NCBI GenBank assembly: GCA_902619925.1
Contig: CACNFY010000001.1
Location: forward strand, 1 to 64,000
Origin: an uncultured Pelagibacteraceae bacterium
GTDB taxonomy: Bacteria; Pseudomonadota; Alphaproteobacteria; Pelagibacterales; Pelagibacteraceae
Direction of reading: 5' to 3'
DNA length: 64,000 nucleotides
Made by a program: the position numbers and the translations under genes. Shown here one piece after another: positions 30,112 through 30,682 of the stretch; position 1 is the stretch's first letter; every line of letters begins with the position of its first letter. The notes below the pieces were generated by a model, which made no database searches, had not been told where the DNA came from, and worked only from the letters and a program-made list of their open reading frames with translations.

Positions 30112-30139
30112 ATTGAAATCAAGAAATCTACACCTATAT
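30112..30139 (+). promoter_or_regulatory. Putative RpoH promoter of hsp20
   Basis: ATTGAAA (30112-30118) resembles the -35 CTTGAAA, and CCTATAT at 30133-30139 matches CYTATNT exactly, with 17 bp between the TTG block and the -10. The predicted start would fall around 30145, directly at the base of the leader hairpin. Confidence 0.62.
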
Positions 30140-30143
30140 GTAA

Positions 30144-30200
30144 ATTGAGGTTGCCTTATGGGACCTCAATATAAACCTTGCTAACAAAGGAGGAAATATG
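30144..30200 (+). promoter_or_regulatory. Predicted ROSE-like RNA thermometer in the hsp20 leader
   Basis: Hairpin I pairs ATTGAGGT (30144-30151) with ACCTCAAT (30163-30170), extended by an inner CC/GG around a TTAT loop. Hairpin II can pair TTGCT (30178-30182) with AGGAA (30191-30195) of the ribosome binding site, including the G-G mismatch that typifies ROSE elements. The AUG starts at 30198. Repression at low temperature is inferred. Confidence 0.55.
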
Positions 30201-30644
30201 ACAAGTAAGGATCTATCTATATTTAACTCTCTAAGACCGTTTTCGATTGGTTTCGATGATATGTTCGATCAATTTGAAAACATGCTCGGAAATGGTAATT
30301 TAAGTATGCAGTCAAATTACCCACCATATAACATCAGAAAGACTGGCAAAGACAAATATTCAATAGAAGTTGCACTTGCTGGGTTTAATAAAAATGATGT
30401 TGAGGTTGAATTCGAGGATAATTTGTTAACTGTAAGAACTAAACAGATAAATAAATCCGAGGATAAAGATGTTAATGGGGAAATTATTCATAAAGGAATC
30501 TCTCAAAGACAATTTGCTAGGTCATTTACAATTGCTGATGATGTTAAAGTAAATGGTGCTGAACTAAAAGATGGTCTTTTAAGAATCGCTTGTGAAAGAA
30601 TAGTACCAGAGCACAAAAAAAAGAAACTTATTGAGATTAAATAA
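30198..30644 (+). CDS. ibpA: Small heat shock protein Hsp20 (IbpA type)
   Basis: This 148-residue alpha-crystallin protein holds unfolded proteins for DnaK/ClpB. The N-terminus (DLSIFNSLRPFSIGFDDMF) is typical of the alphaproteobacterial IbpA class. The core spans about residues 35-135 (YPPYNIRKTGKDKYSIEVALAGF, and the VNGAELKDGLLRI pre-tail motif). The C-terminal I-x-I-like motif appears as LIEIK. It has a strong AAGGAGG site. The RpoH promoter and leader hairpins upstream show heat control at two levels. Confidence 0.93.
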   Translation: MTSKDLSIFNSLRPFSIGFDDMFDQFENMLGNGNLSMQSNYPPYNIRKTGKDKYSIEVALAGFNKNDVEVEFEDNLLTVRTKQINKSEDKDVNGEIIHKGISQRQFARSFTIADDVKVNGAELKDGLLRIACERIVPEHKKKKLIEIK

Positions 30645-30656
30645 GTGTTAAACTTG

Positions 30657-30682
30657 CTTGTGGGGGTAAGCCCCACAAGTTT
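30657..30682. terminator. Bidirectional hairpin terminator of hsp20 and lipoprotein gene
   Basis: CTTGTGGGG (30657-30665) pairs with CCCCACAAG (30671-30679) around GTAAG, a GC-rich 9-bp stem flanked by short AAA/TTT. It sits between the convergent stops of hsp20 and the lipoprotein. T-tracts are short in both directions. Confidence 0.72.

Follow-up and report, generated by a model that had tools for sequence, protein, structure and literature searches.

Does the short leader of an hsp20 gene in an uncultured Pelagibacteraceae (SAR11) bacterium act as an RNA thermometer, and with which partner would its regulatory segment pair? The gene (30198-30644, forward strand; 148 aa) lies in a 64,000-nt stretch of DNA, analysed as a whole and referred to here as the window, from a genome of 1.1 Mb that is 89% complete. 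An initial annotation had proposed a ROSE-like thermometer in which a stable hairpin (30144-30170) precedes TTGCT (30178-30182), the latter pairing with AGGAA (30191-30195) of the ribosome binding site with a G opposite G, and all three elements are present at these positions. The downstream reading frame does encode an Hsp20 protein (Pfam PF00011, E 2.6e-16); the top NCBIfam model, IbpA, scored 102.2 bits, below its cutoff of 212.

The leader (30144-30197) is located immediately 5' of the gene and comprises two hairpins. Hairpin I (30144-30170), identified by folding, by covariation among host and viral leaders, and by alignment to hairpin I of the Rfam family ROSE_3, consists of a nine-pair outer stem, a bulged G30153, C30154-C30155 paired with G30160-G30161, and a UUAU loop. 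In hairpin II, the predicted anti-Shine-Dalgarno segment or ROSE box, CCUUGCU (30176-30182), recognized by host conservation of CT[CT]GCT and the ROSE_3 alignment, would face the Shine-Dalgarno (SD) sequence AGGAGG (30188-30193), its partner according to that alignment and to folding. Upstream of the leader, TTGAAA (30114-30119) and CACCTATAT (30131-30139) make up what we take, from the sigma32 consensus, to be a sigma32-like promoter (30114-30139, forward strand); a sigma-70 scan called no site at these positions, and TTGAA occurs upstream of hsp20 in 116 of 119 distinct Pelagibacteraceae stretches. Transcription would then start at about 30145, and the leader length of ~53 nt depends on this predicted start. 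The suggestion that this is one of the smallest such leaders holds insofar as it is shorter than the Pseudomonas putida ibpA leader, whose start-codon G is position 65 (PMC3669281), but the two are of the same kind of size. Beyond the hsp20 stop codon, a GC-rich inverted repeat, CTTGTGGGG...CCCCACAAG (30657-30679), is probably a transcription end or an mRNA-stabilising hairpin; a terminator scan called none at this position, and similar repeats lie 3' of hsp20 in four other loci (L206, L208, L211, L217).

In folding, the 72 nt from 30144 to 30215 outperformed 199 of 200 dinucleotide shuffles (z -2.93). For comparison, the DNA upstream of hsp20 was read in the window itself, in 80 genome and 64 viral contigs, in 85 genome loci, and in 20 phage records. 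Twelve of these 250 sequences missed the first motif pattern and, together with repeats, are absent from the anchored stem, SD-exposure, promoter-motif, and codon-helix counts; two viral loci (L146, L147) and three fragment loci (L225, L234, L235) were not used. Among the 129 Pelagibacteraceae sequences, 128 have upstream DNA (the exception is L065), and all 128 of these leaders (116 distinct) contain CT[CT]GCT and GGAG; the U(U/C)GCU box thus precedes the SD throughout, its variable position being occupied by U or C. Of the 128, 126 also carry the core pattern of hairpin I.

Compensatory variation is concentrated in hairpin I. With 67 distinct host stems aligned by the core motif alone, the inner five stem positions were paired in 94% of cases, compared with 12-39% when the strands were slid by 1-2 nucleotides. 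The fourth position displays six kinds of pair and is paired in 59 of the 67 stems (no more than 50 in any of 2000 shuffles), the seventh is paired no better than shuffled stems, and the two innermost hardly vary. Covariation scores from covariance-model alignments, which are fitted to structure and thus biased toward it, reached 0.343 in a host-dominated set (47 distinct rows; 45 of 50 matches from Pelagibacteraceae) versus 0.150 shuffled and at most 0.090 with partners slid, and 0.425 in viral leaders (49 distinct rows) versus 0.183 shuffled and at most 0.081 slid. One of five measures, the number of viral pairs changed on both sides, was 10 against 8.5 in shuffles and was reached by 45 of 500 of them. 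A first anchored count had failed to favor the expected register over one slid by a single position, both in viral leaders (0.53 versus 0.60) and in other alphaproteobacteria (0.56 versus 0.71), in our reading because the anchoring motif had been placed on the wrong G within GGGG; for the viral leaders we substituted the model-based alignment, which leans towards structure. Two MAFFT alignments (A1 and A2) misplaced the SD or the box and were excluded from counting. The shuffle test, the compensatory changes, and the recurrence of the element before hsp20 in relatives together exclude a chance hairpin.

Hairpin II, by comparison, is near-invariant and covaries far less, with U·G to C-G changes opposite the SD at the variable position of the box; its pairing is thus suggested by invariance and by analogy. 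Conservation of TTGCT and covariation, whose absence would have counted against the initial annotation, were both found, the latter located in hairpin I. An alternative is a structured leader that does not sense temperature but stabilises the mRNA or is the target of a protein or small RNA, in which case weak pairing of the SD would be incidental. The much stronger covariation of hairpin I, the marked conservation of its core sequence, and the modest modelled effect of temperature on the SD (see below) speak for this view. We regard this as improbable, given that the box facing the SD is invariant, that the leader is tied to hsp20, and that the same layout acts as a thermometer in Pseudomonas (PMC3669281).

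How the leader relates to known ROSE elements was examined with Rfam. A scan of 30135-30215 alone returned only ROSE_3 (RF02523), with 19.0 bits and E 0.027, which misses the gathering cutoff of 43, although all 69 model positions (1-69) aligned to 30145-30203. Wider scans of the window found no ROSE, and classical ROSE and ROSE_2 had no match in it. Sub-threshold ROSE_3 matches appeared in three of 20 phage loci (Melnitz-2, 34.1 bits; C48C1, 26.8 bits; S-8S56, 21.1 bits), while 20 alphaproteobacterial loci scanned at E 0.1 gave one tRNA and no ROSE. With ROSE_3 and the short Pseudomonas ibpA elements, the leader shares two hairpins, a U(U/C)GCU box facing the SD, a hairpin I core of UGCC-loop-GGG with a bulged G, a small heat-shock gene, and a heat-shock promoter upstream; it differs from ROSE_3 in being AT-rich, in its ~53-nt length, in its score of 19 bits against 43, and in that its box may also pair with codons 3-4. 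Judging from layout and consensus, the Pseudomonas ibpA leaders themselves probably belong to ROSE_3. Their two-hairpin structure is a tested thermometer, reported to be thermoregulated by hairpin II alone, whereas hairpin I does not melt (PMC3669281). A single core, Y(G)CY opposite RGG with a bulged G, can describe both hairpins of the present leader.

Classical ROSE elements of rhizobia and Caulobacter and the enterobacterial ibpA ROSE likewise place a U(U/C)GCU box opposite the SD of a small heat-shock gene, but have three to four hairpins (PMC3669281) instead of two, and their Rfam models are unmatched here. ROSE-G, reported upstream of ABC transporter genes with a CUGCU box and two opposed bulged Gs (PMC12857270), has a related box/SD pairing, and its opposed Gs resemble the register first proposed for the window; the box here is instead CUUGCU.

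Four pairings of the box were compared in isolation at 15 °C. The TTGCT/AGGAA register with G opposite G was the least stable (-2.2 kcal/mol), followed by the ROSE_3 register, CCUU(G)CU (30176-30182) with AGGAGG (30188-30193) and G30180 bulged (-5.5 kcal/mol), the plain CCUU/AAGG register (-5.6 kcal/mol), and pairing of the box with codons 3-5 of the window's hsp20 (-10.1 kcal/mol). In the fold of the window, the central pair of the ROSE_3 register had a probability of 0.18-0.20 at 5-15 °C, whereas the register with opposed Gs had a probability of 0.00 and was abandoned. The box-SD pairing with a bulged G fits the ROSE_3 alignment, and competing pairings are equally or more stable; relatives and the Rfam alignment, rather than the energy model of the window, single out the ROSE_3 register. 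Vienna energies leave out the non-canonical pairs of ROSE hairpins.

Modelled exposure of the SD is in line with a closed leader. Across 107 distinct host leaders folded without coding sequence, the SD had a mean unpaired probability of 0.17 at 15 °C, versus 0.46 (sd 0.24) for shuffled leaders. Its rise with temperature was modest, from 0.14 at 5 °C to 0.28 at 45 °C, and including 37 nt of coding sequence left the SD more open (0.33 at 15 °C; 0.51 at 45 °C). Compared with other genes of the window, hsp20 ranked fourth in SD accessibility among only 7 qualifying ORFs, an uninformative sample.

In our view, a ROSE-type thermometer in the hsp20 leader is the best explanation and quite likely correct, its heat response being a prediction. 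In its favor are the gene, the two-hairpin layout, the box facing the SD, conservation, and ROSE_3 as the sole, sub-cutoff Rfam match of the leader scanned alone; the exact pairing register of the original proposal is not supported. The sigma32-like promoter would yield an hsp20 mRNA that starts just before hairpin I, the stable 5' hairpin. The ROSE box CUYGCU would pair with AGGAG of the SD in a short hairpin containing a bulged G and a U·G wobble, and at normal seawater temperature this weak hairpin would hide the ribosome binding site. Heat would melt it and allow hsp20 to be translated. Codons 3-4 could be another partner of the box in the genus of the window and in closely related genera, either locking the open state or adding a second closed one.

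To follow the element beyond the window, we trained a covariance model, R1, on 20 leaders of Pelagibacteraceae plus that of the cyanophage S-SSM4; the training set excluded the window but included close relatives. R1 scored the window leader at 47.7 bits (E 6e-9) and recovered every one of 45 additional Pelagibacteraceae sources, which include the window. Outside the family, matches at E ≤1 were limited to 4 of 29 loci from other alphaproteobacteria and, in the sister family f2, 1 of 8. Within the window's own genome, where 150 of 1468 first-look candidates were scored, a single place was significant; the next had E 0.17, and no additional copy of the leader with E <0.1 was found among the scored candidates. 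Across 297 Pelagibacterales genomes, R1 matched once each in 218 at E ≤0.001, all of them Pelagibacteraceae. The order contains hsp20 in 259 of these genomes, of which 40 are f2 and hence 219 Pelagibacteraceae. Ten matches checked by eye all adjoin hsp20; one Pelagibacteraceae genome with only hsp20 fragments (G149) has no match, and in another (G188) the match is on a different contig from an hsp20 fragment.

The sister family f2 (L226-L230, L232, L233) carries a different, AAUCGCUUAAGGAGGAUU-like hsp20 leader in which box and SD nearly touch. In those f2 leaders that were read, UCGCU adjoins the SD, and the arrangement appears to be a distinct design of ROSE type.

For SAR11 strain HIMB5, a survey published in 2019 notes a "possible RNA thermometer", for which its main text names no gene (PMC6429828). 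HIMB5 belongs to the same clade. This may be the leader described here, and the SAR11 part of our finding may therefore not be new. Passages of PMC9111926, PMC2864753, PMC11342760, and PMC2704228 do not name a Pelagibacter hsp20 leader, and the main text of PMC2704228 contains no occurrence of hsp, heat shock, or thermometer.

The two-hairpin layout also precedes hsp20 in pelagiphages and cyanophages. At E ≤1, R1 matched 66 times in 84 viral and phage loci, in every case just 5' of hsp20 and on its strand; a few of these matches align poorly in hairpin I. In whole phage genomes (20 records less L241; S-SSM4, one of those scanned, belonged to the training set), R1 matched in 17 of 19, and for 16 the top match was judged by eye to lie at the hsp20 start, two of these being weak (HTVC008M, E 0.32; S-T4, E 0.87). 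Paride matched elsewhere and not at the hsp20 start, S-CREM1 had a second weak match elsewhere (E 0.43), and the ACG-2014f and Atu_ph07 genomes gave no match. By eye, the leaders of Paride, ACG-2014f, and Atu_ph07 resemble the layout. Hairpin I is closed by C(UUCG)G in several cyanophages. Near hairpin I, ATAAATA, which resembles the T4 late promoter, occurs in 22 of 34 viral, 6 of 18 phage, and 5 of 119 host stretches; TTGAA is also present in 10 of the 34 viral stretches.

Several individual records deviate in detail. Among four cyanophage records (L246, L248, L239, L250), the annotated hsp20 start does not fit the leader: in P-HM1 and S-SRM01 it falls inside hairpin I, and in S-SSM4 and S-T4 it falls 3' of the ATG that comes after the SD. 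In viral contigs L121-L123, L126-L128, and L137-L145, CUGUCU replaces CUYGCU before the SD; some of these have a longer lower stem (UUAAC/GUUAA), and the variant box still permits a bulged G.

In a protein tree, from which three rows were left out as too short, 13 of 17 viral contigs and HTVC008M group with all Pelagibacteraceae rows (support 97/84), and the cyanophages form another group. The hsp20 gene and its leader may therefore have been transferred jointly between SAR11 and its phages. Among the open-access titles and abstract openings searched, none describes a phage hsp20 thermometer.

Besides the SD, the box CUUGCU has a second complement in hsp20 codons 3-4 (AGU AAG), which together with the first base of codon 5 form the possible alternative partner AGUAAGG (30204-30210), suggested by invariance and pairing energies. 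These two codons are invariant in 113 of 113 distinct 148-codon hsp20 genes, and after codon 10 only 1 of 94 codons with an invariant amino acid likewise never varies. AAG is a minor lysine codon (38 of 320 Lys codons in ten ORFs of the window). In two neighbouring control genes, invariant codons make up 4 of 45 and 2 of 31 of those with an invariant amino acid, versus 2 of 54 in hsp20, and the early codons fixed there are in common use (AAA, CCA, TGT); two further control genes were excluded for too few sequences (0 and 14). We then asked how often random synonymous recodings pair with the box as well as the native start. The proportion was at most 5% in 29 of 29 distinct box/start combinations of the window's genus (g1, presumably Pelagibacter) and in 2 of 3 from the close genera g5 and g6, but in none of 5 from other genera of the family, none of 7 from f2, 1 of 26 from viruses, none of 18 from phages, and none of 17 from other alphaproteobacteria. 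The codon helix was not seen in g2, g3, g7, f2, isolated phages, or other alphaproteobacteria (g4 is borderline), which rejects it as a general feature of the element and restricts it to g1, g5, g6, and perhaps g4. A constraint on codons 3-4 is well supported by these comparisons; box pairing may be its cause.

What such a helix would do can be read in either direction. As an extension of the thermometer in g1, g5, g6, and perhaps g4, heat might hand the box over from the SD to codons 3-4 (CUUGCU:AGUAAG), switching the leader from an SD-closed to an SD-open state rather than simply melting a single hairpin. In 98 distinct host leaders (those with CTTGCT up to L218), the modelled mean probability of the SD hairpin fell from 0.50 to 0.25 between 15 and 45 °C as that of the codon helix rose from 0.16 to 0.43, and the frozen codons and the recoding result for g1 and g5/g6 point the same way. 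Both strands are invariant, however, with no compensatory change, the g1 combinations come from close relatives, and invariant codons are no rarer in the controls, so that only the choice of AAG is odd. Most other lineages do without the helix, including all but one of the 26 viral combinations, and the start codon would remain in a 21-nt loop closed by it. We therefore hold this two-state switch to be possible but tentative. The same loop, containing SD and AUG, could instead make the codon helix a second OFF state whose stem of 6-7 bp must also melt. In isolation, this helix was more stable than the alternatives at every temperature evaluated (-10.1 kcal/mol at 15 °C), and its 3' strand sits where the ribosome requires single-stranded mRNA, yet it leaves the SD itself unpaired and other lineages manage without it, which makes this role doubtful.

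More broadly, the element might be a portable heat-sensing leader that the ocean's most abundant bacteria have in common with the viruses infecting them, among them marine T4-like phages whose hsp20 has a ROSE-type leader behind late-promoter-like sequences, and act in Pelagibacter as a two-state switch using synonymously frozen codons; we offer this only as a speculative synthesis. SAR11 genomes are small and encode few transcription factors, and direct control of heat responses by RNA would therefore bear on how these very abundant ocean bacteria meet warming. The frozen codons offer a clean synonymous test of a ROSE thermometer as a two-state switch. If phages do carry a thermometer on their own chaperone gene, viral expression would be tuned by temperature during infection.
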